Below, in pieces: positions 13,422 to 38,489 of a DNA stretch of 43,302 nucleotides. This DNA is from Halothiobacillaceae bacterium (GTDB lineage: Bacteria; Pseudomonadota; Gammaproteobacteria; Halothiobacillales; Halothiobacillaceae): positions 1 through 43,302 of the forward strand of contig JAQVHL010000018.1 in the NCBI GenBank assembly GCA_028696185.1, given 5' to 3'. Every line of letters starts with the position of its first letter. The first letter of the stretch is position 1. The position numbers and the translations under genes are program-made. The notes beneath the pieces were generated by a model that was given only the letters and a program-made list of their open reading frames with translations, made no database searches and was not told the DNA's origin.

Positions 13422-13434
13422 ACGGAGCTTCCAA

Positions 13435-15170: not shown

Positions 15171-15177
15171 AAACGCC

Positions 15178-15360
15178 ATGAACAGCAAGCAAGTCATCAA
15201 GCAACTGGAGTCTGACGGATGGGTGTTGCGCTCGGTGCGCGGCAGTCACCATATCTTCCGTCACCCCCAAAAGGCTGGGCACATCAGCGTGCCGCATCCA
15301 AAGCATGATTTGGGTGTTGGTTTGGTGCACAAGCTGCTAAAGCAAGCGGGTTTGAAGTAG
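15178..15360 (+). CDS. hicA: HicA mRNA interferase toxin
   Basis: A 60-aa HicA toxin with the dsRBD-like fold signature: MNSKQVIKQLESDGW, then GSHHIFRHP with the catalytic His, then the VPHPKHDLGVG segment. It degrades mRNA when free of HicB. The ATG at 15178 is favoured over an upstream in-frame GTG because of the -10 box just before it. Toxin first, antitoxin 10 nt downstream is the usual order for hicAB. Confidence 0.93.
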   Translation: MNSKQVIKQLESDGWVLRSVRGSHHIFRHPQKAGHISVPHPKHDLGVGLVHKLLKQAGLK

Positions 15361-15370
15361 GAGTCTGACC

Positions 15371-15781
15371 ATGAAATTCCCCATTGCCATTGAGCCGGGT
15401 ACTGACGCCTCCGCGTGGGGCGTAGTGGTGCCTGATCTTCCAGGGTGCTTCTCTGCAGGCGACTCCGCAGAGGATGCGTTCACAAACGCCGTGGAGGCTA
15501 TTGATGCGCACTGCGAGCTGCTGGCCGAGGATGGCATGGCTATTCCCGTGCCGCGCCCGCTGTCCGCTTGGCAGTCCGACCCCGAGTATGCGGGCTGGGC
15601 GTGGGGGCTGGTTGAGATTGACCTGAGCCGCTATGAAGGCAAGGCGGAGAAGATTAACATCACCTTGCCGCGCTATCTGCTGCGCCGCATTGACGAGGCG
15701 GCCAAGGCGGCGGGGTCAAGCCGTTCGGGGTTTCTTGCCGATGCTGCGCGCAAGGCGATGAGGGAGGATCACGCGGCCTAA
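15371..15781 (+). CDS. hicB: HicB antitoxin
   Basis: A 136-aa antitoxin with a partial RNase H-like N-terminal domain (VVPDLPGCFSAGDSAEDAFTNA, about residues 18-42) and a ribbon-helix-helix C-terminal domain (about 93-130: INITLPRYLLRRIDEAAKAAG followed by SRSGFLADAAR). It binds HicA and, through the C-terminal domain, the operon promoter. A GGAG site precedes the ATG. Confidence 0.93.
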   Translation: MKFPIAIEPGTDASAWGVVVPDLPGCFSAGDSAEDAFTNAVEAIDAHCELLAEDGMAIPVPRPLSAWQSDPEYAGWAWGLVEIDLSRYEGKAEKINITLPRYLLRRIDEAAKAAGSSRSGFLADAARKAMREDHAA

Positions 15782-19877: not shown

Positions 19878-20241
19878 GGCCTTTTCTCCAAAAGTCGATC
19901 TTTCTTTGTTCGGAGTTAACCCCGAGCGGATTGTTTTTTTGTCAGGTGTTGCAGAATTTGAGCAATCCTCCCTTGAGCCTTTCGCTCTTTCCCCGTCCCG
20001 TCGCCGTACCCTTCGCGTGCAAATCGTCCAGACCGCGCGATAGGGGCGGGTGCAAGGGCCGTAGGGGCGGCTGGCGCGGCCCGCAGCGCAGCGAGGACAC
20101 GGGCCGCCCCGAAGGGCGCAGCGAACCCTTGCGCACGCCCCCGCGCGGGCTAGATTTGCAAGCAAGCGAAGGGGGCGCCGATGGGCTTGAGGGGGAAGGG
20201 CCAGCGGGGGGATGGCTCGAATTCGTCAGCGACGCCGAGAC

Positions 20242-20271
20242 AAAAAAACAGCCCCGGCAGGGATGCCGGGG
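20242..20271 (-). terminator. Rho-independent terminator after the 142-aa lipoprotein gene
   Basis: Minus strand: stem CCCCGGCA (20264-20271) and TGCCGGGG (20252-20259) with a 4-nt loop, then a run of seven T (20242-20248). Confidence 0.8.
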
Positions 20272-20324
20272 GAAGAACTCATGGATGAGACAGCCCGCAC
20301 CGCCACGCGGGGCGGAATCAGGAC

Positions 20325-21294: not shown

Positions 21295-24200
21295 TTAGCC
21301 CCGCCCCGGCAGGGGGCGCCCGGCGGGTTTTGGCGCCTGTTCAGGCACTTTCTGCCCCGGTTTTGATGGGGTTGCATCCAGTCCAGCGGTCGGTGCCACC
21401 ACAACCGGCGCGGGGCTGGACGATCCACCATTGCCTGCGCCGATTTCCGGCAGACCACCGCCGCCACTGCCACCGCCCGACGTTTCCACGCGCGTTTCCG
21501 TCGAATGGGTGTGGGTCTCGGTAACGACCCCACCACCGCTGCCGCCGCCTGAAACCGTCTCTACGGTCTGCACGCCTGCCGCACTCGAACTGACGGATGA
21601 GGGTGAATCGCCCGGTGTTGCCGGTGCGCCTGGCATCCCCGATGACGACTGGGTAGCCGGGGCTTCACCCTGGGTCGGTGTCATGGCCGTGGGTTGTGCC
21701 CTGCCCGGAACAACGTGTCCTCCTTCCTCCCCTCCCGCGCCCGCCCCTACGTTCGTCGCCGGGATCGGGGTCGGTGTGGGCGCGGGAAGGGCTCCACCCG
21801 TTGCGGAACCGAACAGCACGTCCATGGCCTGCTGGGCGGCAAGCTGGGTAGGCTCGCTTGCCCCAAACCGCCCCAGGGTGGCGCTCACTCCGTCACGGAT
21901 GGGGTTGTCCGTGACGCCCAAGGGCTGCCCACTGGGGATCGCGCTGGGCTTGAGGTCGTGGAAGAGCTGTTCTTGCGCCTGGGTGAGCTGCCGACCCGCG
22001 CCGTCGGGGACGGCAGACGCATTTCGTTGTGCATCAATCAGATATTGCCCCGTCGCGGTCGCGTGCTGGCGCCCCTCGTCGGCGCGTTGCTGGTAGTAAC
22101 CCGCCTGCCCCTGTCCCGCGCCAATGAGCCCCTGCGCTGCCGCCTCCGTGCTGCGCCCTTCCAGGCCGCGCGCGCCGCCGATTTGCGCGTCTGCCTGCCC
22201 GCGCACCTGGGCGGAACTGCCTTCCAGACCCGCGCTGATCCGCGCGGCATCCTCCCTCATCCCCGTGCTGCTGCCCGCCCCGCCGGCGACCATCCCAAGC
22301 GCTGTGGCTGAGTTCATGAGCGCGGCTTGCGCGGCAAGCCGGGTGTCAAGGTCGCCTGAACGCATCAACGCGGCCATGGCCTGGTGGTGCGCCGCCGCCG
22401 CCACGTCCGCATTCGAGCCGCGCGAGGTGGCGCGGATGGCGTCGAAGTTCTTCATGTATTCCTGGTCATATCGCTGCATGGCCTCCAGGCCCCCTATGCC
22501 AATGAAATCGGCGACATTCGCCATGCGCATCGCCATGAGGCGCCCCTCCCCGGCGGTCACGTCGCGCCCGCCGGATTGCGAGAGCATGCCCGCAGCCAGA
22601 CGGCGCGCATGCTCTGCGCCGTTGATTTGGGCCGCGCTGTCCCCCTGCGTGCGGCTTTCAAGGGCGCGCGCCGCCTCCAGGCGGTCGCTGGCCTGCTGGC
22701 TCTGCTCGCTGGCCTGGCGAAGCTCGTTGAGAGTTGATTGAGATACGTTGCCCGTTCTGCTCCAGTTCGCGCCGATTTCTGCGCGGAAGCCGGCGCCGCT
22801 GTGCGTTTCGTCGTTCATGGCGGCGGTGCTGCCTTCCGTGCTGCGCGAGCCCTGCTCGCCTCGCACCCCCGCGCTGACGCGCCCTTCCTGGTCCCCGGAG
22901 AGTCCCAAGGTGGCCTGGGCAAAGGCGCTGACCAGCGAGCCACCCCGGCGGTTGGCTTCCGCTTCCGCTTCACCCATTGCCGCCGCTGCCCCGGCGCGGT
23001 CGCCCCGCTCCATCGCGGCCTTCGCGGCCTTAACGTTTTTATTGCCCGCCCCGAGCGTTTCCGCGCCTTTTTTGATAAAGCCCAGGGGGTCCACATCCAT
23101 CGCCACCCCGGCGTTCCCGCCGACACGCGCCCCGCGCGCGTAACTTCCGCCCGCGTCGGTGTGGGCACTCACTCCTTTGTTTTCTTCGTTACTCACATTC
23201 CTTCCATGCAGCGCCGTCGCGCGGGTGCCGCTGTCAGTGTAGTGGGCGCCGGTGGCCGAGGCTCCGCCCGCCGTGGTGACCCCGAAGGCCTCAGAGAGGG
23301 CGCGTGCTGCTGCGGTCGAGGCGCGCTGCGCGGATTCGACGGCTTGGGTCTCCGCAAGCCGGGTACTTGCCGAGATGCCGCCGCCGAGGCTCACATTTGA
23401 AAGCGCCCCGCCCATTTCTGCGCCCATGTCGGCGCGGCCTGCCGCCGCCCCGACGCCCGCGCCCCAGGTGGCGTTTGCGCTCACGCGCGCGGCGTTAATC
23501 TCGCTGGTGTTGATATCTGGAACCATGAGGTTGGGCGTTTTGCCCTCCTTGTCGGCGCGGTCTGCCGTGCCGTGCATCCCAGGGGAGGCATTGTGCGCGG
23601 CGCTCACACCCTGCGCCATTTTCGCCAAGCCGAAGGCGCTCCCCGCGAAGAGGGCAAAGGTGATAAAGGGCGCGTTGTTCAGCATCCGTGACGCAGCAAT
23701 CGTCGTTTCATGGATGTGGCGCAGCCACTCGACCATGTTCAAAGTAGAGCCGGCCCCGGTGTGAGCATGGAAGTTGCCAATCTGAAGTTGATACCAATGC
23801 ATGATGATCGCCAGCATCGGAATCCAGCTCTGCGACCAGATGCCGAATAGCAGATGCCCGCCGGCAGTTTTGAGCCCGGCCCAGGGGTTCGCGACGATGA
23901 CAAACAGGATGAGGGGGGTCGCGGAGATGAAGACAAAGAACAATACGTCCATCATTCTTGGCGCCACGCCAATCAGCGCTTGGGAGTCCCACGCCTCGTC
24001 CTCCGCCCAGCGGAATAGCTGGCGGGCTGTGTCAGCTTCGACCACCACGGTTCCCACCGGCGCCTGCGCCCCGCGCGCCATGCTGGCGATGGCAATGGCG
24101 CCGACGACATTCTTGTAACCGTCCAGGTAGGCGGCGCCGATGCCGCTTCCCACGCTCTGCGCCGCGCGCAGCAGCTCATCCGCCCCCGTCGCGCCGTATT

Positions 24201-25014
24201 GCGCCGGGGCGTTGTTGTAAAGTCTGTGGTTCGTCTTTTGAAGAATCGGCGCAATAAGGCTCTGCGCGTGCGTGTTCAGGAAGGCCTCGGCGTCCATGTT
24301 TTGCAAGCCTTCGATCCTTGATGCCGCCTCCTCGCAGGTTACCGCCTCGCCCGCGCCGCCGCCTGCGACATACGGACGGGTAGCGGAATACCACACCGTC
24401 TGGCCCGCCTGGGCGAGCTGCGCTAGGGTGGAAAACGGGGCGTTCGATTTCAATACCGTGGCCTTGTCCACCGCGCTGGAAAGGCAATACCGCTGAAACG
24501 CGAGGATTGATTCGCCTGTGTTGGTGTCCAGGCCGCCGTACTCCGCGCCGACCTGCCGCGCCGTTTCAAGCAAAACCTGGGCCGGGTAAAACGGCCCATG
24601 GCCGTCCTCAGGGCTCAGGATTGACCTATAGTTTTGGCTGGAGGAAGACATGACCGTTTCCATTTTCGTGGTCATGTAGATAGAGAAAGCGCTCGCGAGG
24701 TGGCCGGGAATGGCAATCGCGTAGGGCACATGATCCACCACCTGGGTGGGTGCGGCGTGGTCGAACTGCTCGATGGTCACCGTCGTTTTTGGCAGAAAAA
24801 CGGCCATCACGGCAAGAATCTGGATCAAAATTATATCCACCCGCAGCCCCTCCCGCGCCGCCACGGCGCGGGTCAGGATGAGCATGAGGGAAATCACCAA
24901 GCCGGTTTGGATGAGCGATGCCACCCAGGAATCCTGCCCGAAGAACAGGGCCATGCCCCGTAGGGCGCCCGCCAAAACGGCGGGATCGCCGATGGTGTAA
25001 AAGGTTGCATCCAC
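21295..25014 (-). CDS. traG: TraG-family F-type conjugation protein (mating-pair stabilisation / pilus assembly)
   Basis: 1239 aa from GTG 25014, chosen because AAGGAG lies 7 nt upstream and the TraG start pattern follows. The N-terminal about 480 residues carry the TraG_N pattern: membrane helices at about 30-75, the 'VDHVPYAIAIPGHLASA' stretch (compare VDNVPVGLAMP in F TraG), and further helices around 365-400 and 410-435. The remainder is long, Ala/Gly/Ser-rich and periplasmic in F TraG; here it is longer than F TraG (938 aa), and ends in a Gly/Ser/Pro-rich tail. In F-type systems TraG acts in pilus assembly and mating-pair stabilisation, and TraG is the target of entry exclusion. The only other T4SS genes in the window are traN and the mobility genes. 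Confidence 0.88.
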   Translation of the reverse strand: MDATFYTIGDPAVLAGALRGMALFFGQDSWVASLIQTGLVISLMLILTRAVAAREGLRVDIILIQILAVMAVFLPKTTVTIEQFDHAAPTQVVDHVPYAIAIPGHLASAFSIYMTTKMETVMSSSSQNYRSILSPEDGHGPFYPAQVLLETARQVGAEYGGLDTNTGESILAFQRYCLSSAVDKATVLKSNAPFSTLAQLAQAGQTVWYSATRPYVAGGGAGEAVTCEEAASRIEGLQNMDAEAFLNTHAQSLIAPILQKTNHRLYNNAPAQYGATGADELLRAAQSVGSGIGAAYLDGYKNVVGAIAIASMARGAQAPVGTVVVEADTARQLFRWAEDEAWDSQALIGVAPRMMDVLFFVFISATPLILFVIVANPWAGLKTAGGHLLFGIWSQSWIPMLAIIMHWYQLQIGNFHAHTGAGSTLNMVEWLRHIHETTIAASRMLNNAPFITFALFAGSAFGLAKMAQGVSAAHNASPGMHGTADRADKEGKTPNLMVPDINTSEINAARVSANATWGAGVGAAAGRADMGAEMGGALSNVSLGGGISASTRLAETQAVESAQRASTAAARALSEAFGVTTAGGASATGAHYTDSGTRATALHGRNVSNEENKGVSAHTDAGGSYARGARVGGNAGVAMDVDPLGFIKKGAETLGAGNKNVKAAKAAMERGDRAGAAAAMGEAEAEANRRGGSLVSAFAQATLGLSGDQEGRVSAGVRGEQGSRSTEGSTAAMNDETHSGAGFRAEIGANWSRTGNVSQSTLNELRQASEQSQQASDRLEAARALESRTQGDSAAQINGAEHARRLAAGMLSQSGGRDVTAGEGRLMAMRMANVADFIGIGGLEAMQRYDQEYMKNFDAIRATSRGSNADVAAAAHHQAMAALMRSGDLDTRLAAQAALMNSATALGMVAGGAGSSTGMREDAARISAGLEGSSAQVRGQADAQIGGARGLEGRSTEAAAQGLIGAGQGQAGYYQQRADEGRQHATATGQYLIDAQRNASAVPDGAGRQLTQAQEQLFHDLKPSAIPSGQPLGVTDNPIRDGVSATLGRFGASEPTQLAAQQAMDVLFGSATGGALPAPTPTPIPATNVGAGAGGEEGGHVVPGRAQPTAMTPTQGEAPATQSSSGMPGAPATPGDSPSSVSSSAAGVQTVETVSGGGSGGGVVTETHTHSTETRVETSGGGSGGGGLPEIGAGNGGSSSPAPVVVAPTAGLDATPSKPGQKVPEQAPKPAGRPLPGRG

Positions 25015-25047
25015 GTCTTGCGCTCCTTGGTTTTGGTTGTCACGTTT

Positions 25048-25066
25048 ACTTGTGAAGGCACGGAAC
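25048..25066 (-). promoter_or_regulatory. GTTCC-N9-CAAGT motif 3 (upstream of traG)
   Basis: Minus strand: GTTCC, GTGCCTTCA, CAAGT, AAA. It ends 33 nt before the traG GTG. Its CCTT can pair with AAGG of the traG ribosome site AAGGAG. Confidence 0.65.
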
Positions 25067-25120
25067 AGAATTCCAGCCCAAAAAAAGCCCCGGACTTCCG
25101 GGGCTTTTGCTTCGGTGCGG

Positions 25121-28100
25121 TCAATCCCCACACTTCTGGGTTGTTCTGAACCGGGCCACGAAGTCCCCCACGCCACCGACGATCAGGCGTACCTTCAGGC
25201 TGTTCGATCCGCTCTGGATCAAGGGCAGCAGGTCCACGCTCGTGGTGATGCCGCCGACCGTCATCCCGTGCGGACCCTGAATCTCGCGCGGCCAGTCGCA
25301 GCCGTCCGATGGATCGTCCGAAGTCTGGTTGCGCACCCGGTTGTCCGGGCACAGCTCCAGGGTGTCACCGCCGTTCGGGCCGTTCCAGATCACGGTGCCG
25401 TTCAGCTCCATGCGCAGCCAGTCGTCATAGGCCAGCCATTCCATGACGAACTGCGTCAGCTTGGACTTGTCCTTGATGTTGATGGTCCCGGAGAGATCGT
25501 AGGAGCCGTCAGGGTACTGGTGCTGCTGCTTGGTGCCGAAGGTCAAAAGCCAGTCCTGACCGTCCTCGATCCACTCAAAATTGGTTGTGGCATTGCCTGC
25601 CGAACCCAGCACGTTCCCGCAATCGGTCTGCTTACACTCGGGGTAGGTGTAAGGCATCTTCTTGTCGTCCTGGTAGCAATGGGTCGAATTGCGCAGGATT
25701 TCCGTATTCCCCATGAGCTTGTCCATATTCTGCTCCATGCCTTCGGCGGTCTTCGTGGCCGCAATGCGCTGGTCAAACTCGCCCTTGGTGTCTTCCGTGC
25801 GCCCCACGGCCTGGGTTATTTCGATCTTGTTCTGCGCCGCCCCGTAATTCGTGCGCGGGTCCGCGAGGTTCACAAAACCACTCTCCACCATGGCGTCCAG
25901 CCATTCGGACAGGTCCACGCGAGACCAATCGACCAGCGCCAAATCCATGGGCGTGAAGCCGCCACAGTTGATGTCACAGCCTGACAGGCTACCCCCACCG
26001 GGGGCCGTCCTGTAGTCGCGCGAGGGCAAAAGCCCTTTCTTGATGATCTGCTCGGCAATCACGCGCCCAGCAATGGACTTGTAACAGCAGTGCAAGCGCC
26101 GCTTCTCAACACAGAAGCCCAATGCCTTCTTGGAGCAACAATCACCGACATAGGTGCAGAGTCGCCACTTGTTGTTCATCGCCCATTCGTATTCCTCGGG
26201 CTTGCAGGCGAAGATGATGTGTCCGATGAGTTTGGCGAATTGGTACACAGTGAAGGCAAGGTTGATGTATTGCAGGATTTGGCCGCCAATCGTGTTGGCA
26301 AATCCCCATTCCCCTGCTTCCTGAGCGATGAATTCTTTTGCGAACTCATCCCCCCCGATTTCCTTGAGGAATTTGTAAGCCGTCTCGAACATGAGCTGCT
26401 CCATTTTGTGGATGACGCCTCCCTTTCCAAAAATCGCGATCCCTTTTTCGGCGGAATCCACTGCAATGCTTGAGGGTGCCGCGCCTGCCGCACCGCCACC
26501 GCCAAACGAACCAAACAGGCTGTCAAAACTGGCGTTAAAAGGCTCGACGAGGTTCTTCGTGACGTACTCAGAGGCCGCCCCATAGGCATCGGTAATCGGC
26601 TGGGCAATCTCGCCAAAAAACTTTGACGTGGAGTTGAAAACATCCACCCCGCCCACAAGTTTTTGGAATTGGGCATTGCTTCCGATTTGGTACATGAGCA
26701 TCGAGGCGTTCAGGTAGTCCATCCAGGTGGGCCGGTCTGAAGCGGCCACCGCATCCTCGGTTTCCTTGCAGCAGTTCGGGGTGATACCGATTTCATGCCC
26801 AATCGGAATCTTGCAGTACATGGCCTTGCCGCCAAACACCATTGGCGTGCAGGGGTCGGTGGTGTTCTTCGGCGGCTCCCCGGTCTCCGCACAGATCATG
26901 TCCATCTTGGCCATGTTCAGCGCTTCCATGCCGGCCACGGCCTGCGCAAAGGCGTCTCCGTTCGCGCCCGCGAGGTTCGGGCGGTGGCACTCCGTCCCCA
27001 GGCAGCGCATGGCACCCGAGCACGAATCCCCCTTCTCCTCGATGATGACCGGAATTTCGCTGCCCTTTTTTTCCCCACAGTCATAGGCCAGCGTTGGGTT
27101 GTAGCAGACCCCGGTATACAGCCCCAGAAAGCGCGAGTCGCAACCGTCATAGGCGGTGCTTCGCTTGCACATGCCGGAACTCTCCAGCGGCACGCCATCC
27201 GGCCCCGGCGTGATGTGGCAATCCGTCGCCCACAGCTCTCCGTTGCGGGTGAACTGTTTCAGGCTACTGGCGCTCATCGTTTCGCAGGTCGTGAACGGCT
27301 CGCCTACAGCCTCCCAGCACATTTGATCGTCGAGCAGGATCACCTCCGGCCCGGTCGGGGTCGGCTCCACGCCGGCTCCACCGCCCGAATAATCGGGGAA
27401 GACGGCGGAAGAATCCGTTCCCCATTTTTTCAGGATGTCCACGATCCCCGAGTTCGGCAGACCCGGCCCGAAGGTCACACCGCCAATGGTTCGTGTAGGC
27501 GCGGTATCCACGCAGGTCAGCTTGCCGCCCTGGCAAAATCCATCCGCCACATGCTGCATGTATTTCTCGCACCCGGCGAAGGTGTTGATCGTCACCGCAT
27601 AGAGTTTCGCCATCAGGCGCAACTCGTGCAGGGTATCGTCTCCACTCGCGCTCCCGGTCGGCACCCAGCTTTCATCGGGCAAGCCATAATGCGAGAAATT
27701 TCCGCTCCCGCCAGCCTGGACAAACACGCCATCCGCCGCGAACTCAAAAGGATCGCCGCCCATGGGGGTATGGTCGTATTCGATGTAATACCCGGCGCTG
27801 GTCCCCAGCGGATCGTCAGGCAGAATCTCGGTCGTGCAATCGTTCTTGCCGTCACCGTCGAGGTCACGCGGGCAATCCGGGGCGCCGATAATGCGGAAAT
27901 TCGTCAACACGCCACCTTTGACATTCGCGGGCTCTTTCACATAAGTGAAAAGCGGATTACCGTTGGCATCCTTTACCTGCTGCCCGGTCTGCGGGTCGAT
28001 GATCGGCACGGCCTTCTTGTTGAAGGCGCGCACGGTCAAAAAGTTATGCTCGCCCAGATAGCTCATGCCATAGGAACGCTTGATGGTGTTGCAACCGTCC

Positions 28101-29626
28101 GGGTAGGGGTTCACCAGCGTTTCCGAGCAGAGCTGAATATTCTCCTGGTGGTAGGAGTTATCCACGCCGACCTCAATACGGGTGATGGTGTCTCGTGAAC
28201 ACAGGCCGGCCAATTCCTGCGCCGTGCTGCTCGACCCGGCGTTCAGGCCACGCATGACCCCGCCGACGACACCGGCATCATCGCGGTAGTTCTTGCCTCC
28301 CGCGTTCGCCATGCTTAGGTCGCTGTATTCCTTACCCTTCACCTGGGCATCCGGATTGCTCCGGTCGTCGTACATGGTCAACACGCTGGCCCCAGGAGAG
28401 CCCGCGCACCAGCGCAGCGTGTCGCCGCCAACGGACGACACTTCGCAGCTCTGCGGGGGATCGGGCGGGCAGCCGGCTCCGGCAGCCGGCTCCGTGTAGC
28501 TCACGTCCGTCCGATACAGGTCCGCCGAGAGATATACCGCCGTCACGCCCTGGGGCACGGTGTAGCCAATCGAAGGCGTAAACCCGTCATCCGGCGTGCC
28601 GTAGCTGGCAAAATAATTCTCAGGCAACGGCTCCACGCTCCCGCCGTGAGAAATGCCCAACTGGTGCCGGTAGGTGAAGAAATTGCGGTCGCGTGGCGCG
28701 GTATACGGCGTATAGGTGTAGCGAATCGCATAGTCATCGCCGATACGATCCCAATAGGTAGAGGATGAACCGCCAATCGTCGGGACAGCCAGCTTCAGCG
28801 TGCCTTTCTTGTAGGTGCTGGGCGTCATGACGGTGGTGTACTCGACCGGATTCGTGTTAGGGATCGGCTCCTTCACCAGGTCAAAGAACTCGACCTTCAG
28901 GATGCGGTTTTCCGCCGAACCCGGTGCCTGGGCAATATCCTGCCGGTCCAGCAGGATGAAATCCGTCTTGCGGCACCCGCTGCGCTTGAGTTTCTGCTTG
29001 TTCTTTTCGGCCATCTCCTTGGCCTTGCTGGGGTCCTGGTAGATCGCCCCGCCCATGTCGCGCAAGGTCTGCACGTCCTGCGCGTTATATCCCGGCATGA
29101 TCTCGGTGACGTTGACCCGCCCCTCTGCGGTGTCGTTCTGCCCAGGGTCCACCCGGTTGGTTTCAACCTGGTAATTCCTGACATCTGCCGTGTTGTAAAT
29201 TCCCTGTGCGAAATCCGATCCGCGCTGCGCGCCCTGCACCAGATCGCCAATCTGCAGGGGCGCATGCTTGCTGGCCGCGCTTGCCGCCAGTGCGGCGTCG
29301 GACGGATCGGGTATCAGGTTCGGCGTCCTGACCGGCGAGGTGTCCGGGGTCAGGTTCGGTGCGTGCAGCGATTCTTCCATCTTCCAGCCTTCGGCCAGCT
29401 TGCGGGCACGCTGGTTGGTCAGATGGTCTTCCGTGGCCTTGTCCACGGTGCGCCCGGCCACGGCACTCTCGCGCTGTTCCGTGGTGGTTTGCTCGCCGGG
29501 CAAGCCCTGGGCGTAGGCTTGATGCCATTGCAGCGGCCAGACGATCAGGGACCAGGCCAGTAGGACATGAGCCCCGGCCCGAAGGATAAGGGAGTAAGAG
29601 TAATTCGATTCGGCTGGTTCGGACAT
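25121..29626 (-). CDS. traN: TraN-family outer-membrane adhesin (mating-pair stabilisation)
   Basis: 1501 aa, start ATG 29626. A signal-like hydrophobic segment (about 13-40) ends at AYAQG. The cysteine-rich conserved TraN core is near residues 1000-1270: CCKETED, then CSKKALGFCVEKRRLHCC, then the segment leading to DWSRVDLSEW, which align with CSKKVLGVCLEKKRSYC and the following part of F TraN. F TraN is 602 aa; this one has a large N-terminal extension and a C-terminal extension of about 200 aa with Trp/Gly-rich beta-sandwich-like sequence (YDDWLRMELNGTVIWNGP). TraN recognises recipient outer-membrane receptors and stabilises mating pairs, so the extensions probably set recipient range. Confidence 0.88.
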   Translation of the reverse strand: MSEPAESNYSYSLILRAGAHVLLAWSLIVWPLQWHQAYAQGLPGEQTTTEQRESAVAGRTVDKATEDHLTNQRARKLAEGWKMEESLHAPNLTPDTSPVRTPNLIPDPSDAALAASAASKHAPLQIGDLVQGAQRGSDFAQGIYNTADVRNYQVETNRVDPGQNDTAEGRVNVTEIMPGYNAQDVQTLRDMGGAIYQDPSKAKEMAEKNKQKLKRSGCRKTDFILLDRQDIAQAPGSAENRILKVEFFDLVKEPIPNTNPVEYTTVMTPSTYKKGTLKLAVPTIGGSSSTYWDRIGDDYAIRYTYTPYTAPRDRNFFTYRHQLGISHGGSVEPLPENYFASYGTPDDGFTPSIGYTVPQGVTAVYLSADLYRTDVSYTEPAAGAGCPPDPPQSCEVSSVGGDTLRWCAGSPGASVLTMYDDRSNPDAQVKGKEYSDLSMANAGGKNYRDDAGVVGGVMRGLNAGSSSTAQELAGLCSRDTITRIEVGVDNSYHQENIQLCSETLVNPYPDGCNTIKRSYGMSYLGEHNFLTVRAFNKKAVPIIDPQTGQQVKDANGNPLFTYVKEPANVKGGVLTNFRIIGAPDCPRDLDGDGKNDCTTEILPDDPLGTSAGYYIEYDHTPMGGDPFEFAADGVFVQAGGSGNFSHYGLPDESWVPTGSASGDDTLHELRLMAKLYAVTINTFAGCEKYMQHVADGFCQGGKLTCVDTAPTRTIGGVTFGPGLPNSGIVDILKKWGTDSSAVFPDYSGGGAGVEPTPTGPEVILLDDQMCWEAVGEPFTTCETMSASSLKQFTRNGELWATDCHITPGPDGVPLESSGMCKRSTAYDGCDSRFLGLYTGVCYNPTLAYDCGEKKGSEIPVIIEEKGDSCSGAMRCLGTECHRPNLAGANGDAFAQAVAGMEALNMAKMDMICAETGEPPKNTTDPCTPMVFGGKAMYCKIPIGHEIGITPNCCKETEDAVAASDRPTWMDYLNASMLMYQIGSNAQFQKLVGGVDVFNSTSKFFGEIAQPITDAYGAASEYVTKNLVEPFNASFDSLFGSFGGGGAAGAAPSSIAVDSAEKGIAIFGKGGVIHKMEQLMFETAYKFLKEIGGDEFAKEFIAQEAGEWGFANTIGGQILQYINLAFTVYQFAKLIGHIIFACKPEEYEWAMNNKWRLCTYVGDCCSKKALGFCVEKRRLHCCYKSIAGRVIAEQIIKKGLLPSRDYRTAPGGGSLSGCDINCGGFTPMDLALVDWSRVDLSEWLDAMVESGFVNLADPRTNYGAAQNKIEITQAVGRTEDTKGEFDQRIAATKTAEGMEQNMDKLMGNTEILRNSTHCYQDDKKMPYTYPECKQTDCGNVLGSAGNATTNFEWIEDGQDWLLTFGTKQQHQYPDGSYDLSGTINIKDKSKLTQFVMEWLAYDDWLRMELNGTVIWNGPNGGDTLELCPDNRVRNQTSDDPSDGCDWPREIQGPHGMTVGGITTSVDLLPLIQSGSNSLKVRLIVGGVGDFVARFRTTQKCGD

Positions 29627-29687: not shown

Positions 29688-32450
29688 TTAACGCTCAAAG
29701 TCCCTGTCGGGGCTGCGGTCGGGGCTGCGCGTCTCATGGCGCGTGTTCCGCGCCTCCGCGCCGGCCTGGTGAATCAGGCGGCGCACCTCGTCGATGTGCT
29801 CACGGGTTGAGCCTAGCGCGGCTTCTTTCTGGCCGGTTTCGGATTGAATTTGCGCCTGCAACTTGTCTTTACCGTCTGTGAACACCGTCGCGCTGTGCGT
29901 GGCGCGGGAAATGGGGACGTAAAAATTTTGCTGGGACATCAAGTTCTTACGGTGAGACTCGGCGTGTATTAGTACATGTTTGGTCGTGCGCCCCTGCGAT
30001 TCGTGCCCAGTTTGCGCGTACCCATGATCCACCGCGAGGGGGCGGGTGGGGTCGAGGAGATGGGCTTTCCCCGCGCCGTCGCGGGTGTGGATCGCACCTT
30101 CATGTACTTTTTCAATGGTAAGTGTTGTGCCGTTCTTCAAGTTGTAGATGTTGGCGCGGGTGACGATTTTATCCCCCTCCGCCACGCCCATTTCGCGGGT
30201 CTGGTAGACGTTTAGGCGTGAAAATCGCGCGGGGTTAATCTCGCGCATCTCTCCCCCCTTTCCCTTTTCGAGCTGGATGGTGAGGCGATTGGACGTGGCA
30301 TCCACCCCCACCACGCGGGCAAAATCGCCCCGCGCGAGGCCCGTGCTTTTATAATCGCGGCCCGCCTGGATCACGTCCCCTGGGTGGTATCTTGCCGCGT
30401 GCTTCTGCTCCTCGCGGGTCAGGTCGCGCCGCTCCAGGGCGCGGATTTTGGTTTCCTCGCCCAGCTCGCCCCGCTCGCGCAGGGCGGCGCGCACCGCCTC
30501 GTTGATTTCGCGTCGGTCGTCGCGCCCTGGCGCGATAATCATCGTCTGGGATCGCTCCTCTTGGGAGCGCTGGGTGTAATTTTTAACAATCTCCTCCACC
30601 CGCTCCTCGCGGGTTTTGAGTTCATGCACCTCGATTTTGTCCAGGGCCTTGCCAACCTCGCCCCGGATTGAGTGATAAACGGCCTTTTTTAACTGATCGT
30701 TTTTCTGGCGGACAATTTCATCCAAAACCAGGGTTTTCAGCCCGCTTTGTTCCTGGAGCTGCCGAAACGCCGCCCCCGCCTCCACGCTGCCGATTTGCGC
30801 CGTATCTCCCACTAGGATCACCCGCGCCTCGCGGGTGCGTTCTAGCAGCGCACGCATGTCGCGAGTGCTTAGCATGGAGGCTTCGTCCACGATCACGACC
30901 TCCCGCCCCGCCCCCTCCTGGGGGCGCGAATTGAGGAAGCTCGCGACGGTTTGCCCCTCGGCCTGGATGGCCTCGGCGAGCGTCGCCGCCGCGCTGTGTG
31001 TGGGTGCCAAGGCGCGAATTTGATACCCCTGGCGGCGCAGCTCCTCGGCGCTCGTGGCCAAGACGCTGGTTGTCTTTGCCGTGCCGGCGTAACCTTGGAT
31101 CAGGCTTACCCTTTCTCCACTCGTGAGGATGGATTGGGTAGCATCACGCTGGGCCGGATTGAAGGCAAACCCAGTCCGCGCCTCCTGGCGCGCAATTGCC
31201 TTTTCCGCCCCGGCGCGGCTTGTAGTAGGAGATTGCTCACGCCCCTGGCGCGAAGCGGCGAGCATTCCGTGTTCCGTTTCTTGCCCTCTTCTTGTCGTGA
31301 ATCCATCCATTTGTGTTTTACCCAAAACGGGATCAAACTGCCGCGTTTTTGTGGCAATAAGCGCGCCTTGCTCCTTGGCGCGTGCAATTGCTTCACGAAC
31401 CTGTGATTCATTGACCTCGCCCATGCCGAAGCGAAGAGCATCCACCACGATCTGTCGCTCTGCAAATCGGGTCTCCCTTTCGGACAGGTGATTGATCGCG
31501 GATTGAAGCGCACGATCCGCGCGGGACTCCGCGCTTTCAATCTGGATACTGGCAGTCGGCAAGGAAAAGGTGAATCCCGCCTCCGCACTCCGGGCCTGCC
31601 ACGCCTCGCGTAATTCGGCATGGTCTGCGACCTCTTTCCCTTGCCGGGTTTTCAGCTTCACCATTTCTTTCTGTTCAGCACTCGCGGTTTCAGGGGTAAG
31701 ACCCAATTTCGCAAGCTCGGCTTCGATTTGCTTCGCGCGTGTGCTGTGGATTTCCCTTTCTTCTTTACTGATTTGTGAGAGTTCAAAACTTGCATATCCA
31801 CCTTCTGTCGTCTTTTCAATTTGATAACCCATGCGCTCGGCCTGCGCGGCCAATTCGGCGCGATAAACCAAACCGGCTTCAGTTTGCAGTCTGTAAATAG
31901 CTCGTGATTCTATTGATCGCCATTTTCCATCCTCGCTTTGCGTCGCATTGATGACAATGGCGTGGGAGTGCAATTGCGCTTCCTGCTCTCGACTGGTCGC
32001 GTGTCGATACACTGCAGCGGTCAGATTGCCGGTTTTCTCTGTTTCAACCGCCCCCCCTGTCCTGATTCGTGTCGCGGCGGCTTCGGATTCAAGGTAATTG
32101 AGCGCTGCGACAACCGCCTTGTTGTGCGCCTCAATCAGACGGTCATCGCCATGGACCAATGCGGCCACCGAAACGGATTTAGGCGCACTAAAGGTCACGT
32201 CCCAACCGGGTTTATGCTCGCGCTCTCCATTGGGGCCAGCCCGACCCAATTCTACGCCATTTGGCAAACGGCCATTAAGCAATGCTTCGGTCTGGTCTTT
32301 ATCCACGGCCCCGGAAAGCCCTAAAAGCGCAGCCCCTTTTCCATGCCAATGCGTCGGGGCAGAAACCCCTTCTCGGTAATAATCATCCACCTGGGCGTAA
32401 TACTCACTTGCCCCGGCGGCAGAATTGATTGCGGTAACGTGGGCAACCAT
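29688..32450 (-). CDS. traI: MOBF relaxase / helicase (TrwC-TraI family)
   Basis: 920 aa, close in size to R388 TrwC (966). The relaxase domain (about 1-300) has two Tyr pairs, 17-18 and 24-25, matching Tyr18 and Tyr26 of TrwC, and the metal-binding His triad with HSH at 161-163. The helicase part has Walker A GYAGTAKTT (453-461), Walker B VDEASM (521-526) and a RecD-like C-terminal region. It should nick oriT, stay bound to the 5' end and unwind the transferred strand. The ATG follows directly after the accessory protein's stop. It lacks the long C-terminal part of F TraI. Confidence 0.95.
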   Translation of the reverse strand: MVAHVTAINSAAGASEYYAQVDDYYREGVSAPTHWHGKGAALLGLSGAVDKDQTEALLNGRLPNGVELGRAGPNGEREHKPGWDVTFSAPKSVSVAALVHGDDRLIEAHNKAVVAALNYLESEAAATRIRTGGAVETEKTGNLTAAVYRHATSREQEAQLHSHAIVINATQSEDGKWRSIESRAIYRLQTEAGLVYRAELAAQAERMGYQIEKTTEGGYASFELSQISKEEREIHSTRAKQIEAELAKLGLTPETASAEQKEMVKLKTRQGKEVADHAELREAWQARSAEAGFTFSLPTASIQIESAESRADRALQSAINHLSERETRFAERQIVVDALRFGMGEVNESQVREAIARAKEQGALIATKTRQFDPVLGKTQMDGFTTRRGQETEHGMLAASRQGREQSPTTSRAGAEKAIARQEARTGFAFNPAQRDATQSILTSGERVSLIQGYAGTAKTTSVLATSAEELRRQGYQIRALAPTHSAAATLAEAIQAEGQTVASFLNSRPQEGAGREVVIVDEASMLSTRDMRALLERTREARVILVGDTAQIGSVEAGAAFRQLQEQSGLKTLVLDEIVRQKNDQLKKAVYHSIRGEVGKALDKIEVHELKTREERVEEIVKNYTQRSQEERSQTMIIAPGRDDRREINEAVRAALRERGELGEETKIRALERRDLTREEQKHAARYHPGDVIQAGRDYKSTGLARGDFARVVGVDATSNRLTIQLEKGKGGEMREINPARFSRLNVYQTREMGVAEGDKIVTRANIYNLKNGTTLTIEKVHEGAIHTRDGAGKAHLLDPTRPLAVDHGYAQTGHESQGRTTKHVLIHAESHRKNLMSQQNFYVPISRATHSATVFTDGKDKLQAQIQSETGQKEAALGSTREHIDEVRRLIHQAGAEARNTRHETRSPDRSPDRDFER

Positions 32451-33014
32451 TTAATTGGACTCCTTGACCAACCGGATGACATCCTCTGGATTTTGAGGCC
32501 ATTCTTCAGGCGGAAAACTGGGCGGCAAATCGCGCATTTCAGGAAAGTCGGGGGCGTTAATCAGGGGCCAGCGCCCGAAGGCGCAATAGTAGGAATAGGC
32601 AACCACCATTACGCGATTCAACGCCATCTTTGGAGAGAGCGTGGACCTGGCTGGAAATGACAGGATCGCGCGGGAGTAATACTCATCGAACGCAGGGGCC
32701 GGCTTGATGGACTTCACCACGGCTTTGGTCAAATCAATCATGGCCTCTGTCACGCCATTCAGCGTTTTTCGTGTCTCTTTGAGGCTGCCAATCGCATCAC
32801 CGCGCAGCAATTCAAGTGCATCGGTGAATCGCTCAATATCAGCGCGGGTCGGAACGGGTTGAGCCTGGGGCGCGGGCTGGGCTGGTTTGCCTGCGTGTTC
32901 CTGAATGAGACGTCGTAGGTATTCATTCCTGGGAAGATTGGCAGACCTTGCTTCTGTATCAACGGCCTGTAGAAGCTGATAGGGCATATGAAGGTTAACT
33001 CGGGATTCGTTCAT
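32451..33014 (-). CDS. Ribbon-helix-helix relaxosome accessory protein
   Basis: 187 aa. The N-terminal 40 residues (RVNLHMPYQLLQAVDTEA then RNEYLRRLI) have the ribbon-helix-helix pattern of TrwA/MobC/TraY-type proteins; a proline/glutamine linker and a helical C-terminal domain with Trp-rich parts follow. It sits between the candidate oriT and the relaxase gene, as trwA does relative to trwC, so it probably binds oriT repeats and may repress its own promoter. The leader GAGACGCGCC precedes the ATG. Confidence 0.75.
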   Translation of the reverse strand: MNESRVNLHMPYQLLQAVDTEARSANLPRNEYLRRLIQEHAGKPAQPAPQAQPVPTRADIERFTDALELLRGDAIGSLKETRKTLNGVTEAMIDLTKAVVKSIKPAPAFDEYYSRAILSFPARSTLSPKMALNRVMVVAYSYYCAFGRWPLINAPDFPEMRDLPPSFPPEEWPQNPEDVIRLVKESN

Positions 33015-33038
33015 GGCGCGTCTCGATGGGAATTACCT

Positions 33039-33057
33039 ACTTGTGCAGAGGCGGAAC
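33039..33057 (-). promoter_or_regulatory. GTTCC-N9-CAAGT motif 5 (upstream of the accessory protein gene)
   Basis: Minus strand: GTTCC, GCCTCTGCA, CAAGT, AGG. It ends 24 nt before ATG 33014. CGCCTC can pair, with one mismatch, with GAGACG of the leader just upstream of the start. Confidence 0.65.
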
Positions 33058-33098
33058 GGGCGTAACTGCACGGCAACGGCTCGATGCGACATACGACA

Positions 33099-33132
33099 TG
33101 CGTAATACGCAATACACATTGCGTATTACGCA
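33099..33132. repeat. Perfect 14-bp inverted repeat in the candidate oriT
   Basis: TGCGTAATACGCAA and its exact reverse complement, separated by TACACA. Each arm itself contains a shorter palindrome (GCGTAATACGC is nearly symmetric). Confidence 0.85.
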
Positions 33133-33237
33133 ATGCAGCATGCAGGAAGGTGGGCGGTTTTTAGCTAGCGTCTCCAAGGGGATGGAGTAGAGGAATGACC
33201 ACCACAAGGATTGTTCAACACACCAGTCTAGGTATCC

Positions 33238-33351
33238 GGATTCAGTTGTGCATGCGTTTACCAAGGAAAAGCCTTGGGTTTTGGGATTCAGTTGTGCATG
33301 CCGTTGTGCATGCCGTTGTGCATGCGTTTACCAAGGAAAAGCCTTGGGTTT
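33238..33351. repeat. Direct repeats with embedded hairpin and 12-mer iterons
   Basis: GGATTCAGTTGTGCATGC... to ...CCTTGGGTTT occurs at 33238-33281 and again at 33284-33351; the second copy carries two extra 12-bp units of GTTGTGCATGCC. CCAAGG and CCTTGG form the hairpin in each copy. Confidence 0.8.
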
Positions 33352-33523
33352 CAGCCACCACGCGCGCCAGCGCGACGCGGCAGGCAGTGCGTGGGGTCTG
33401 TCTCCAAATTCGGGCGCCCGCGAGCGTCAGCGAGGGGGCATGCGCGGGCCGGGGTCCGCCTGCCCTCGGGGGCAAGTGGGGCGGGCTTCAGCCTGCTCCA
33501 CTTACCCCCAGAGGGGGGGGGAA

Positions 33524-33613
33524 GATGCGACATGCAACATGCAGCATGTGCAATCTGATGTTGCAATGCGACTCACGACATGCGATATGCAGCATGCGAC
33601 ATACAACATACAC
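33524..33613. repeat. Array of degenerate ACATGC-type short repeats
   Basis: CATGC/CATAC words preceded by A or G recur about every 10 bp (one helical turn) for 90 nt, next to the 3' end of the coupling protein gene. Suits cooperative protein binding. Confidence 0.6.
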
Positions 33614-33633
33614 ACTTCGATAATGAGAAGTGT

Positions 33634-35610
33634 TTACCACTCTTCATCGTCAGTCTGGGCCGGGGTGTTTTGTTCATGTTCAACTCGATCTACCTGGGGC
33701 AAGGAGGCCGGGTTGAAGCGCATTTCTTCGCGCTCAAGGAAAAGCGGGTTTTTATGCGGGCGCTTTTTGTATTCGATCTGCACCCTTGCAACCTGGCCTT
33801 GGGTTTTATCAAACACCACTTTCAAAAAGCCTTCGAGCGGCTTTAATCTCGCGATTTCAGCAGGCATGACCAAATATCGCTCCGCCCGGCGGCTGGACAC
33901 CCCGCTTGAATCGCGAACGGACTCCACCCCGAAACTGACCGATTCTGATTTCTCAATCACTTCTTCCTTTCCAAGGATTTCGGCAAGTTTTTTAGCCGTC
34001 TCGTCTTCATCTGTTTTCAGAATTAGCTTGTTTTGCAACCCACCAATGAAAATGCTCATCGCCTCTTTTGAGTACACTTGGGTAAGCTGCTGGATGTTTT
34101 GAATCCCAACCATTGTTGAGATTCCATATTTGCGCGATTGGGTAAGTGCAACATCAAGACTCTGGATTTTCCCCGCGCTTGCCAATTCGTCCAGGGCAAA
34201 GAAAAGATGAAGATCATCACGCGGAACGTCCATCGCCTCATTGAGGGCGATTGACAAAAATACGCTGATGTACGGCTTGATGATTTCATGGATGGACGCA
34301 CTTGAGGAAATGAACAGCCATGAATCCCCCTCTTGGCGTACAAAGTCACGAATTGAAAAACCACCCTCGGCGAAATGCTGAAGGAAACGCAAACCGGGCG
34401 ATGAAACAATCTGCCCGCGAATAGACTGCGATGTTTTGGCGGTTTCTGGATTGATGAGTTGCGCGCCATTTCCATTAACCGATTTCAGGATTTCATGCAA
34501 TTCATGCAGGGGTGTCTTTGCGGCAACGGAATAAATATCCGGCACGGATTTTGAGTTTGCGGCGCAATACTTGATAACATCGGTCAGAACTGTGCGCGCT
34601 GAATTGGACCAAAACGGGTCGCCGCCTTTTGGATCGGGAATAAATTGCTGCGCAAGGAATTCAATATCGGCTTCACGTCGCAAATCGGCAAACAGATTCC
34701 ACCCCTCGCTGCGTTTATCGGCGGGATTGAGAATCACGTCGATACCAGGCCGGTAATAAATGGCGGTGAACTCCCCGGTCGGGTCATAAACGATGGCACG
34801 TTTTTTGGCATTGCGAAGGGAATCGAGCGTGTGCATGATGGCCTGCGATTTTCCCGACCCGGACCCGCCCACGGCGAGCAGGTTTTTAAACAGGGCGTTT
34901 TTGGGCAACTCGACCCCGCCAAATGCAATCCCGCTGGGCGCCTCGCGTTTGATGAGCTTTTTCATTGCCTGAACGCTTATTATTTCAGCCCCGCGCAGCT
35001 TTTCGGATTCACCCGCCTTTTTCCCGGCCTGGCGGAAAATGAAAAGGATAAGGACAAATACCGCCCCACCCAAGGCGGAAATGAAATACAGCCGCATTTT
35101 TACAGGCGCCCACGCCTGCGCCAGCGCGCCCGATTTTTGCAAGGCGTGCAGCATATCTGGGTGGGGAAGACAAAGGCGGGATTCGGGGCCGAGTTTTGAA
35201 TCTACCTCCTCGCCGCCTGGGGTTTTAAGCATTGGGGTTTTAAGCATCTCTGCCAATTCTGGATCGATTTCTTCCAGGGTGTCCCTTTTTCTTTTTTCAA
35301 TTGGCAATGCCTTAAGGTTGATCCCGAAACGCGCAAAATCTTGAAGGGAAAGACATAAAGTTACATCTCTCTCCCAAGGAAAATTTTTTGGTTCAGACTC
35401 AGACCGATTTCCAATTTCAAAAAAATTTAGAGTTAAAGCTGCGCTGGTGGTTTTCAGAATTTTTAATTCATCATGAATTGAATCAGAAGTAAAAACAGGC
35501 CAAGCGGACAGCGCTGCCGCGCCCAGGGCCAGCAGCCCGGCACGGGTTAAACTTGTTGAAAATAAACGGGATTTATGGGTGAGAATTTCGCTTCCGCGCG
35601 TGGTGGACAT
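33634..35610 (-). CDS. traD: Type IV coupling protein (VirD4/TrwB/TraD family)
   Basis: 658 aa, start ATG 35610. Two membrane helices (about 22-40 and 173-193) flank an unusually large periplasmic part of about 130 residues; the cytoplasmic ATPase has Walker A GGSGSGKS (248-255) and Walker B FFALDEL with Asp-Glu at 474-475, followed by the TrwB-type QSRKYG segment. It should bring the relaxase-DNA complex to a T4SS and provide ATPase activity. In the periplasmic part a 15-bp tandem duplication encodes KTPMLKTP. Separated from traI by the candidate oriT. Confidence 0.93.
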   Translation of the reverse strand: MSTTRGSEILTHKSRLFSTSLTRAGLLALGAAALSAWPVFTSDSIHDELKILKTTSAALTLNFFEIGNRSESEPKNFPWERDVTLCLSLQDFARFGINLKALPIEKRKRDTLEEIDPELAEMLKTPMLKTPGGEEVDSKLGPESRLCLPHPDMLHALQKSGALAQAWAPVKMRLYFISALGGAVFVLILFIFRQAGKKAGESEKLRGAEIISVQAMKKLIKREAPSGIAFGGVELPKNALFKNLLAVGGSGSGKSQAIMHTLDSLRNAKKRAIVYDPTGEFTAIYYRPGIDVILNPADKRSEGWNLFADLRREADIEFLAQQFIPDPKGGDPFWSNSARTVLTDVIKYCAANSKSVPDIYSVAAKTPLHELHEILKSVNGNGAQLINPETAKTSQSIRGQIVSSPGLRFLQHFAEGGFSIRDFVRQEGDSWLFISSSASIHEIIKPYISVFLSIALNEAMDVPRDDLHLFFALDELASAGKIQSLDVALTQSRKYGISTMVGIQNIQQLTQVYSKEAMSIFIGGLQNKLILKTDEDETAKKLAEILGKEEVIEKSESVSFGVESVRDSSGVSSRRAERYLVMPAEIARLKPLEGFLKVVFDKTQGQVARVQIEYKKRPHKNPLFLEREEMRFNPASLPQVDRVEHEQNTPAQTDDEEW

Positions 35611-35780: not shown

Positions 35781-36167
35781 TCATGCGCGCTTGGACAGCG
35801 CTTCACGCATGATCATGAGGTGGTGCGCCGCCACCTTGCGGCGCCTTTCCCTTTCCTCCTCGCCGCGCGGCAGGGCGCGCGGCGCAGGCGCATAAGCCAT
35901 TGATTTATGGTCAAAATCCGGCCTGGCGAGACGGAGAAAAACGGCGGGGGTGAGGGGCTGCCCTGGCTCAACCCGCGCGATTTTGCTCAACCCGCGCATC
36001 ACTTCGTCAGCAGTAAGTCGTTCATTTTCAATGAAATCTCCCCACGCTTTTAACCAGTTTTTTGCATCCAGTTCGCTCCTAGTCTGCGCCGCCACGGCGG
36101 GGAAATATGGCCTGAACCTTGCTAGAAGCAGCGCGGCGAGCTGGGCCGGGGTGGCGTGATTACTCAT
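35781..36167 (-). CDS. Replication protein P-like helicase loader
   Basis: 128 aa from ATG 36167 (MSNHATPAQLAAL), overlapping the O-like gene's stop. The pattern RFRPYFPAVAAQTRSELDA then WGDFIENERLTADEV then PLTPAVFLRLARPD follows the phage lambda P-like family (FPA, then ENGIT..EQV, then PSPGQFV). Such proteins load the host DnaB helicase at the origin marked by the O-like protein. Shorter than lambda P (233 aa). Confidence 0.65.
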   Translation of the reverse strand: MSNHATPAQLAALLLARFRPYFPAVAAQTRSELDAKNWLKAWGDFIENERLTADEVMRGLSKIARVEPGQPLTPAVFLRLARPDFDHKSMAYAPAPRALPRGEEERERRRKVAAHHLMIMREALSKRA

Positions 36168-36903
36168 TTTCCACCCCCAGGCGATTGACATAGCTTCCGA
36201 CGTGTGATAATACCGCGCGCATCCAGGGCGGCACCTCCTCCGCCTCGCTTAGCAAAATCCGCGCCACGGTGCTTGGGAAGGCGCGTCCGCGCGGGTCTTT
36301 TTCCTCCGCACGCTTGACAGCGGCGGCGATTTGTGATGGGTGGAACTCATAAATTTTGGAAAGGATCGAGGCGTCCAGCTCGTTCTCTTCCTGATAATGA
36401 ATCCCATTTCCATCGACGCGCAGAGAGGGTGCGCCTCGCGCGCCTGCGGGAGCGCGCGCAGGCGCGCGCGACTCTCTTTTGGGTTCTTTCTTATCTTTTA
36501 GATTCCAGCTTTTAGCTTCGGGGGCATAAATTTCTGCCCGGGGGGAAAATTCTGCCACCTCCCCCTCGACCTCATTTTTCCCCCCAGGGGGAAAATTCTG
36601 CCCCCTCCCCTCGACACCTTTCGATAAAGAAAGGTTGAGGTAATATAAATTACTTAAATTCCTGCCCTGGGCGTCATGGCGATGCTCAATTTTTATCAAT
36701 CCCAAATTTTTTAAATCTTGGATCGCCGCCCGCACCCCGCGCTCGGAGGCTTGCAAGTCCTGTGCCGTGCGCTCATGGCCCGGCCAGCACACCCCGCGCG
36801 GGTCCGCGCGGTCCGCAAGGCGCAGCAAAACCAGTGAATTCAAGCACTTAAGCTGCGTGGAAGATATTATCCTCCAGGCCCATGCCGTGGCTTCCGCGCT
36901 CAT
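36160..36903 (-). CDS. Replication initiator, phage O-like with winged helix
   Basis: 247 aa. The N-terminal winged-helix domain (about 10-95: KCLNSLVLLRLADRAD followed by WPGHERTAQDL then SERGVRAAIQDLKNLGLI) is of the HTH_36 / phage replication O type. A Gly/Pro-rich linker (about 100-135) repeats an 'FxPxG/A-E' pattern whose DNA is the iteron array. A C-terminal conserved part follows (about 175-235, WMRAV). Its start overlaps the upstream gene by four nt (ATGA), and its stop overlaps the P-like gene's ATG. The lambda-type O-P arrangement suggests that the excised element replicates. Confidence 0.75.
   Translation of the reverse strand: MSAEATAWAWRIISSTQLKCLNSLVLLRLADRADPRGVCWPGHERTAQDLQASERGVRAAIQDLKNLGLIKIEHRHDAQGRNLSNLYYLNLSLSKGVEGRGQNFPPGGKNEVEGEVAEFSPRAEIYAPEAKSWNLKDKKEPKRESRAPARAPAGARGAPSLRVDGNGIHYQEENELDASILSKIYEFHPSQIAAAVKRAEEKDPRGRAFPSTVARILLSEAEEVPPWMRAVLSHVGSYVNRLGVENE
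36520..36616. other. Candidate replication origin inside the O-like gene
   Basis: GGGG(C/G)-(A/T)-AAATT-type units recur: GGGGCATAAATTTCTGCCC (36520-36538), GGGGGAAAATTCTGCC (36541-36556) and again GGGGGAAAATTCTGCC (36587-36602), with an inverted TTTTTCCCCCC at about 36575-36585. The two best copies share CTCCCCNTCGAC downstream. AT-rich flanks lie on both sides (36474-36520 and 36619-36665). This matches the lambda layout, where origin iterons lie within the O gene's linker-coding part. Confidence 0.5.
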
Positions 36904-38412: not shown

Positions 38413-38489
38413 TGGTGTCCCCGGCAGGATTTGAACCTGCGACCTTCCCCTTAGGAGGGGGACGCTCTATCCAGCTGAGCTACGGGGAC
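38413..38489 (-). tRNA. tRNA-Arg (anticodon CCT)
   Basis: Intact 77-nt gene on the minus strand: acceptor GTCCCCG paired with CGGGGAC, D arm GCTCAGCTGGATAGAGC, anticodon loop CTCCTAA (CCT reads AGG), T arm GCAGGTTCAAATCCTGC, and a chromosomally encoded CCA end. It remains intact because the element carries the matching 3' part. Confidence 0.97.
38417..38459. repeat. Right attachment-site repeat (inside tRNA-Arg)
   Basis: 43 nt identical to 13311-13353. The element therefore lies on the 3' side of the intact tRNA, as expected for insertion at a tRNA 3' end. Confidence 0.92.

Follow-up and report, generated by a model that had tools for sequence, protein, structure and literature searches.

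A probable MOBF origin of transfer flanked by seven-base-pair repeat tracts in an integrated element of a Halothiobacillaceae bacterium

Plasmid F is nicked at GCGTGGGGTGT/GG within its origin of transfer (oriT) (PMC5422253), and in its relaxosome several ribbon-helix-helix (RHH) units of TraY line up on oriT; TrwA of R388 is of the RHH type as well and contacts the coupling protein through its C-terminal part (PMC12117103). RA3 encodes an auxiliary transfer protein, MobC, that autoregulates its own operon (PMC4175270), and R388 carries two sets of five 9-bp repeats by oriT that are bound by StbA, a protein affecting both stability and transfer of the plasmid (PMC3098194). Short contiguous repeats are also known from partition: the centromere of pSM19035 consists of 7-bp repeats bound by the RHH protein ParB/omega, one dimer per repeat and in either orientation, and full activation of ParA by omega needs at least four contiguous repeats (PMC9499535). 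As for integrated elements that use a helper plasmid, SGI1 encodes its own TraN, TraH and TraG; these take the place of the corresponding proteins of its IncC helper and inactivate entry exclusion (PMC5389848).

The locus and its carrier element

The window analysed here, meaning the whole 43,302-nt stretch of a Halothiobacillaceae contig, contains a 619-nt gap (33015-33633) between traD and a small accessory gene, both on the minus strand. Read along that strand, the order is traD, the gap, the accessory gene, the MOBF relaxase gene directly after it, traN and traG:

33634-35610, minus strand: TraD-type coupling protein (TrwB_AAD_bind, E = 1.5e-95)
32451-33014, minus strand: accessory protein of 187 aa with a ribbon-helix-helix-like N-terminus (NF050181 VapB and RHH_1, both sub-cut-off)
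29688-32450, minus strand: MOBF relaxase-helicase of TrwC/TraI type (TrwC, E = 1.6e-84; NF041492 MobF, 268.5 bits against a cut-off of 100)
25121-29626, minus strand: TraN-like mating-pair stabilisation protein (58.4% identity over 99% to pAt1 TraN)
21295-25176, minus strand: TraG-like protein (TraG_N, E = 1.2e-31; 41.9% over 36% to pAt1)

The original prediction had placed a candidate oriT beside accessory and coupling protein genes, and the gap is indeed flanked by both, with the relaxase gene next. We consider it very likely that a small integrated mobile element has its origin of transfer at 33015-33633. The locus is ordinary in kind, as a MOBF oriT, and unusual in its tracts of 7-bp repeats (heptads) and in the element that carries it. 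Neither the region at the DNA level nor the accessory protein matched anything among plasmids, and the relaxase had no relative among viral contigs. Outside the window's own genome, TraD showed at most 33% identity in 369 genomes of the class and TraN at most 38%, along short segments only, in 398 genomes of the phylum; TraG, sought in 57 related genomes, matched in the window's own genome only.

The element spans 25.1 kb (13311-38459) and is integrated at a tRNA-Arg(CCT) gene (38413-38489), the 3′ part of which coincides with one of two exact 43-bp repeats:

13311-13353, no strand assigned: left attachment repeat, 43 bp, exact direct repeat
13414-14469, plus strand: tyrosine integrase, just inside the left repeat (Phage_integrase, E = 8.5e-25)
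36160-36903, minus strand: lambda-O-like replication initiator (phrog_1032, E = 4.8e-19)
38417-38459, no strand assigned: right attachment repeat, exact direct repeat, in the 3′ part of tRNA-Arg(CCT)

With an integrase, attachment repeats, its own relaxase and predicted oriT, and an incomplete mating pore, the element has the traits of an integrative and mobilizable element. The initiator gene contains direct repeats (34 nt at 36531 and 36577, and an 18-nt tandem at 36519-36556; span 36519-36610), which suggests that the excised circle can replicate. Further genes encode an ArdC-like protein, overlapping 19878-20324, and HTH and HicB-like proteins. At 14732-15781, near the integrase gene, an HTH_37 protein gene and a HicB-like antitoxin gene are each preceded by a small open reading frame and likely form toxin-antitoxin pairs.

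The predicted nick and its conservation

A GTGCGT-NNN-GTCT segment resembling the R388 nick region had been reported near 33387; it is present, at 33387-33399, and forms the core of the following features:

33385-33410, plus strand: nick region CAGTGCGTGGGGTCT/GTCTCCAAATT (32.2 bits, matrix without the window)
33400, plus strand: predicted first base of the transferred strand (nick T33399/G33400, from the F nick position and the conserved core)
33352-33399, plus strand: possible relaxase-proximal inverted repeat 5′ of the nick, weak (CCACGC...GCGTGG or GCA-GGCAG-TGC)

We built a 26-nt weight matrix from 33 sites (21 of them distinct), with R388, F and two plasmids included and the window left out. 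On this matrix the nick site scored 32.2 bits, compared with 9.0 for the next best site of the window and a maximum of 15.7 among 30 Markov sequences as long as the window. Placement of the nick followed F, for which a 49-mer with 27 nt 5′ to nic is described (PMC5422253), and puts the predicted cut on the plus strand between T33399 and G33400, in the context GTGCGTGGGGTCT/GTCTCCAAATT.

The comparison with oriTs of MOBF plasmids that had been proposed as a check gave agreement with both of the well-studied systems. Up to the nick, the window's GCGTGGGGTCT/GT shares 10 of 11 bases with the GCGTGGGGTGT/GG of F, one difference in eleven. The F-like word alone is weak evidence, since the F 11-mer with at most one mismatch occurs four times in the window where 1.2 occurrences are expected. 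In R388, the sequence GTGCGTATTGTCT/ATAG, in which the slash marks what we take to be the cut position, lies antisense to trwC, the same relation as that of the window site to its relaxase gene. R388 further shares the GTGCGT...GTCT core, a small accessory protein gene and a relaxase 36% identical to the window's; it differs in the middle of the core (ATT there, GGG here), in gene order (oriT-TrwA-TrwB-TrwC, as against TraD-oriT-accessory-relaxase) and in the phasing of its repeats (11 bp, as against 7 bp), and the element, unlike R388, has F-type TraN and TraG. The likeness to F extends to the homologues of TraD, TraN and TraG, which are F-type, and to the accessory protein, RHH-like here and the RHH protein TraY in F (PMC12117103). 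The window departs from F at base -2, which is C as in R388. Both plasmids have a clear hairpin 5′ of the nick, and the window lacks a clear one of F type: its candidate folded no better than chance (z = -1.59 for 33352-33402 and +0.80 for 33377-33399), and the CCACGC/GCGTGG pairing is long-looped. Judged by sequence, the predicted nick is a blend of the F and R388 sites and resembles F at least as closely as the R388 site to which it had been likened; over the core, F is the better match. The analysis predicts, to the base, the nick of a MOBF element that is distant from the plasmids studied so far, and the consensus TGCGTNNNGTST unites the F and R388 nick sites.

We regard comparison with relatives as the decisive support for the predicted nick. 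A single scan of bacterial and archaeal genomes gave 517 confirmed relaxase relatives, of which the best 80 were used; the closest relaxases among them were 56% (L053), 54% (L054) and 44% (L055) identical. The core was first noticed in these three loci and in two sphingomonad plasmids. Upstream of the relaxase genes of the best 80, the pattern TGCGT[AG]N[GT]GT[GC]TGT occurred antisense in 28 and sense in none, and a short matrix, trained on R388, F and a part of these very loci, reached at least 14 bits antisense in 45 of 80 and sense in 0 of 80 (51 antisense and 20 sense at 10 bits). Across nine aligned sites, R388 included, GTGCGT...GT.T was invariant. On either side of the predicted nick, the window's GTCTCCAAATT behind it is close to the GTATCCAAATT of sphingomonad relatives, and GACGC-GCA-GCAGTGCGTGGGGT in front of it is common to the window and L054. 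A site of at least 14 bits was not found in 35 of the best 80 relatives, 8 of the 80 having less than 2300 nt of upstream sequence, and TGCGTNNNGTCT was absent near two same-family relaxases (G005 and G008) in loci reaching about 1.5 kb past the relaxase (L004 and L005). In L054 the core is found about 4 kb ahead of the relaxase gene, away from the accessory gene, and a Marinobacter locus (L025) has the same order of TraD, gap, small genes and relaxase, but just a looser match, on the sense strand. Taken jointly, the oriT reading and the position of the nick between T33399 and G33400 are predictions in which we place high confidence, with the named site the best of the window by far and its core conserved antisense in relatives.

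The related MOBF relaxases of two core-bearing loci, L053 and L055, are encoded within a single 191-kb contig of one metagenome bin. The integrase of L053 is 35% identical to that of the window.

Heptad tracts and other repeats around the nick

The 619 nt were described in the original prediction as dense in repeats of four classes, namely a perfect 14-bp inverted repeat, a duplicated hairpin, three tandem 12-mers and an ACATGC array of nearly 10-bp phasing. We recovered the following features:

33081-33143, plus strand: heptad array 1, nine contiguous NNN[AT]T[AG]C units (read in sevens; lag-7 autocorrelation)
33099-33132, no strand assigned: perfect 15-bp inverted repeat, 33099-33113 / 33118-33132 (DNA fold z = -6.9)
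33245-33281, plus strand: 37-bp unit, copy 1, GTTGTGCATGC plus CCAAGG/CCTTGG hairpin (exact repeat)
33291-33325, plus strand: tandem 12-mers GTTGTGCATGCC, 2.9 copies
33315-33351, plus strand: 37-bp unit, copy 2 (exact repeat)
33463-33515, plus strand: long hairpin with imperfect pairing, on the transferred strand (fold of 33400-33530: -36.9 kcal/mol, z = -2.27)
33522-33549, plus strand: heptad array 2a, three strict units and one near unit
33577-33611, plus strand: heptad array 2b, five contiguous units
33612-33633, minus strand: terminator-like hairpin at the end of traD (number found near chance expectation)

The phasing of about 10 bp did not hold. Autocorrelation showed a period of 7 bp, with lag-7 z values of 5.9 (33084-33145), 5.4 (33520-33615) and 5.4 (the whole 619 nt, a value reached by 0 of 500 shuffles), compared with -1.8, -0.4 and 0.5, respectively, at lag 10. 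Array 1 reads TCGATGC, GACATAC, GACATGC, GTAATAC, GCAATAC (units 1-5) and ACATTGC, GTATTAC, GCAATGC, AGCATGC (units 6-9); this tract, missed earlier, contains the perfect inverted repeat. Measured from the nick, the tracts are found 256-318 nt before it and 123-212 nt past it. RCATRC words numbered 14 in the region, compared with a shuffle mean of 1.6 (0 of 200 shuffles reached 14).

The other three repeat classes fared better. The inverted repeat is real and perfect, with arms of 15 rather than 14 bp around a 4-nt loop (longest perfect inverted repeat 15, compared with a shuffle mean of 6.7; 0 of 200 shuffles reached 15). The duplicated hairpin is an exact 37-bp repeat, each copy of which holds CCAAGG-AAAAG-CCTTGG, and the tandem 12-mers are present as 2.9 copies with an extra 11-nt copy at 33245 (45 repeated 12-mers, compared with a shuffle mean of 0.02; 0 of 200 shuffles reached 45). 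The tile at 33064 was top or joint top of the 139 window tiles for RCATRC words, 12-mers and inverted repeat. That several proteins are bound at such a region, as had been suggested, is plausible.

Runs of at least four such heptads were found in none of 139 other loci (2.84 Mb, both strands, some overlapping), and among 32 other nic loci lag 7 was one of the three best lags in L065 only, at 0.51, below the null maxima of 0.63-0.66 (nulls from four loci including the window). The heptads thus lack comparative support, as no other nic locus examined shows them, and in one open-access library we found no paper on heptad repeats at an oriT or relaxosome, nor any mention of 7-bp direct repeats in 15 of 31 related papers. 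Heptads are not known from plasmid F.

One parallel for the heptads is the omega/parS system of pSM19035, which shares with the window contiguous 7-bp repeats beside a gene for an RHH or RHH-like protein, here in runs of nine and five; the heptads themselves differ (WATCACW there, NNN[AT]T[AG]C here). Given the RHH-like N-terminus of the adjacent accessory protein and the precedents of omega, TraY and TrwA, the chances appear evenly balanced that the heptads are binding sites of that protein. Its N-terminus resembles NF050181 VapB (E = 2.3e-7) and RHH_1 (E = 0.017), both below the curated cut-offs, and a poor single-sequence model (mean pLDDT 49.6) placed two helices, at low confidence, at residues 12-24 and 29-41. 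The heptad tracts make it possible to test directly whether accessory proteins of relaxosomes can act as heptad-coating filaments, in the way described for a partition protein.

Other accounts of the repeats were weighed against accessory-protein binding. It seems unlikely that the heptads form a partition-like site (parS or stbDR type) by oriT, bound by another protein and serving stability, not transfer: the StbA-bound repeats of R388, whose 11-bp period is visible in L027, and the centromere of pSM19035 are parallels for such a site, but the repeats here have a period of 7 instead of 11, array 1 precedes the accessory gene, and ParA, StbA and StbB were not recognised among the window genes scanned. 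Doubtful to a similar degree is the view that the inverted repeat and array 1 are a mere operator of the accessory-relaxase operon with no role in transfer. Array 1 is found 67-129 nt ahead of the start codon of the accessory gene, and autoregulation has its precedent in RA3 MobC (PMC4175270); arrays 2a and 2b, however, are downstream of the nick, by the end of traD and away from the accessory gene start. We also think it rather unlikely that the repeats are iterons of the replication origin of the element, bound by the lambda-O-like initiator encoded at 36160-36903, with just the short nick segment left for transfer. Tandem repeats are typical of lambda-O-type replication origins, but lambda-type origins lie inside the initiator gene; the initiator gene of the element has its own direct repeats (34 nt and the 18-nt tandem), and the heptads adjoin the accessory gene and nic, some 2.5 kb from the initiator gene. 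Finally, it is very improbable that the nick-like segment arose by chance and the true oriT lies elsewhere, since the 19878-20324 alternative named in the original prediction reaches -2.3 bits at best (32.2 for the nick site) and overlaps the ArdC-like gene, and a second TGCGTNNNGTCT word, at 12883, is outside the element and scores 0.56 on the 26-nt matrix.

A promoter or terminator explanation of the region was considered and rejected, one of each having been found and both being near chance; near array 1, the minus strand showed no sigma-70-like promoter. The imperfect hairpin at 33463-33515, also missed earlier, sits 64-116 nt behind the nick, and as a guess it could start second-strand synthesis in the recipient.

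Transfer route and helper

We infer the following route. After excision, the MOBF relaxase of the element would cut the plus strand between T33399 and G33400 and stay on the 5′ end at G33400. The transferred strand would leave towards traD, so that the accessory and relaxase genes would enter the recipient last. The RHH-like accessory protein would coat the heptads to either side of the nick, each heptad taking one dimer; the coating would shape the relaxosome and may hand it to the TraD of the element, and at array 1 the same protein would repress its own operon. An F-type helper plasmid would provide the mating pore, which the TraN and TraG of the element would remodel.

Use of a helper through TraN and TraG is probable, judging from the gene content. 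Apart from these two, no pore gene was recognised inside 13311-38459 among the open reading frames scanned, which included part of the small ones. TraN has its relative in pAt1 of Allochromatium tepidum, the record of which shows an F-type gene set; the likeness of TraG to pAt1 is confined to the first third of the protein. In the host genome there was no match to TraH, and the sole TraU match fell within a DUF1525 protein, encoded on a small contig, so that no resident helper was found. The DUF1525 protein (L133 576-1226, on host contig 2, overlapping the weak TraU match) is perhaps a remnant of another conjugative element.

SGI1 offers the nearest model, as an integrated element with a core of about 25-26 kb and its own TraN and TraG of an F-type pore (PMC5389848). 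The element differs from it in having a MOBF relaxase and its own coupling protein, where SGI1 uses its own MpsA and MpsB (PMC9299015), and in being integrated at tRNA-Arg with no TraH found, where SGI1 is integrated at trmE (PMC8409611). A review of integrative and mobilizable elements, which lists the three proteins of SGI1, names MobC, MobP, MobQ and MobV as canonical relaxases in a table legend (PMC5704250); MobF is absent from that legend, and the element would therefore be an unusual combination. Its own relaxase and coupling protein together with TraN and TraG would merge two hijacking strategies that the review draws as separate types (PMC5704250). As a tentative and rather speculative synthesis, a single RHH assembly with omega-like filaments flanking the nick may serve as oriT, operon switch and perhaps segregation site, on an SGI1-like hijacker with a MOBF relaxase, coupling protein, TraN and TraG.

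Outside the element, two adjacent genes at 288-5554 encode proteins with phosphonate-binding, PAS and GGDEF domains, one of them also with an EAL domain, and a TwoAYGGAY RNA motif scored above the gathering score on the minus strand at 43-106.
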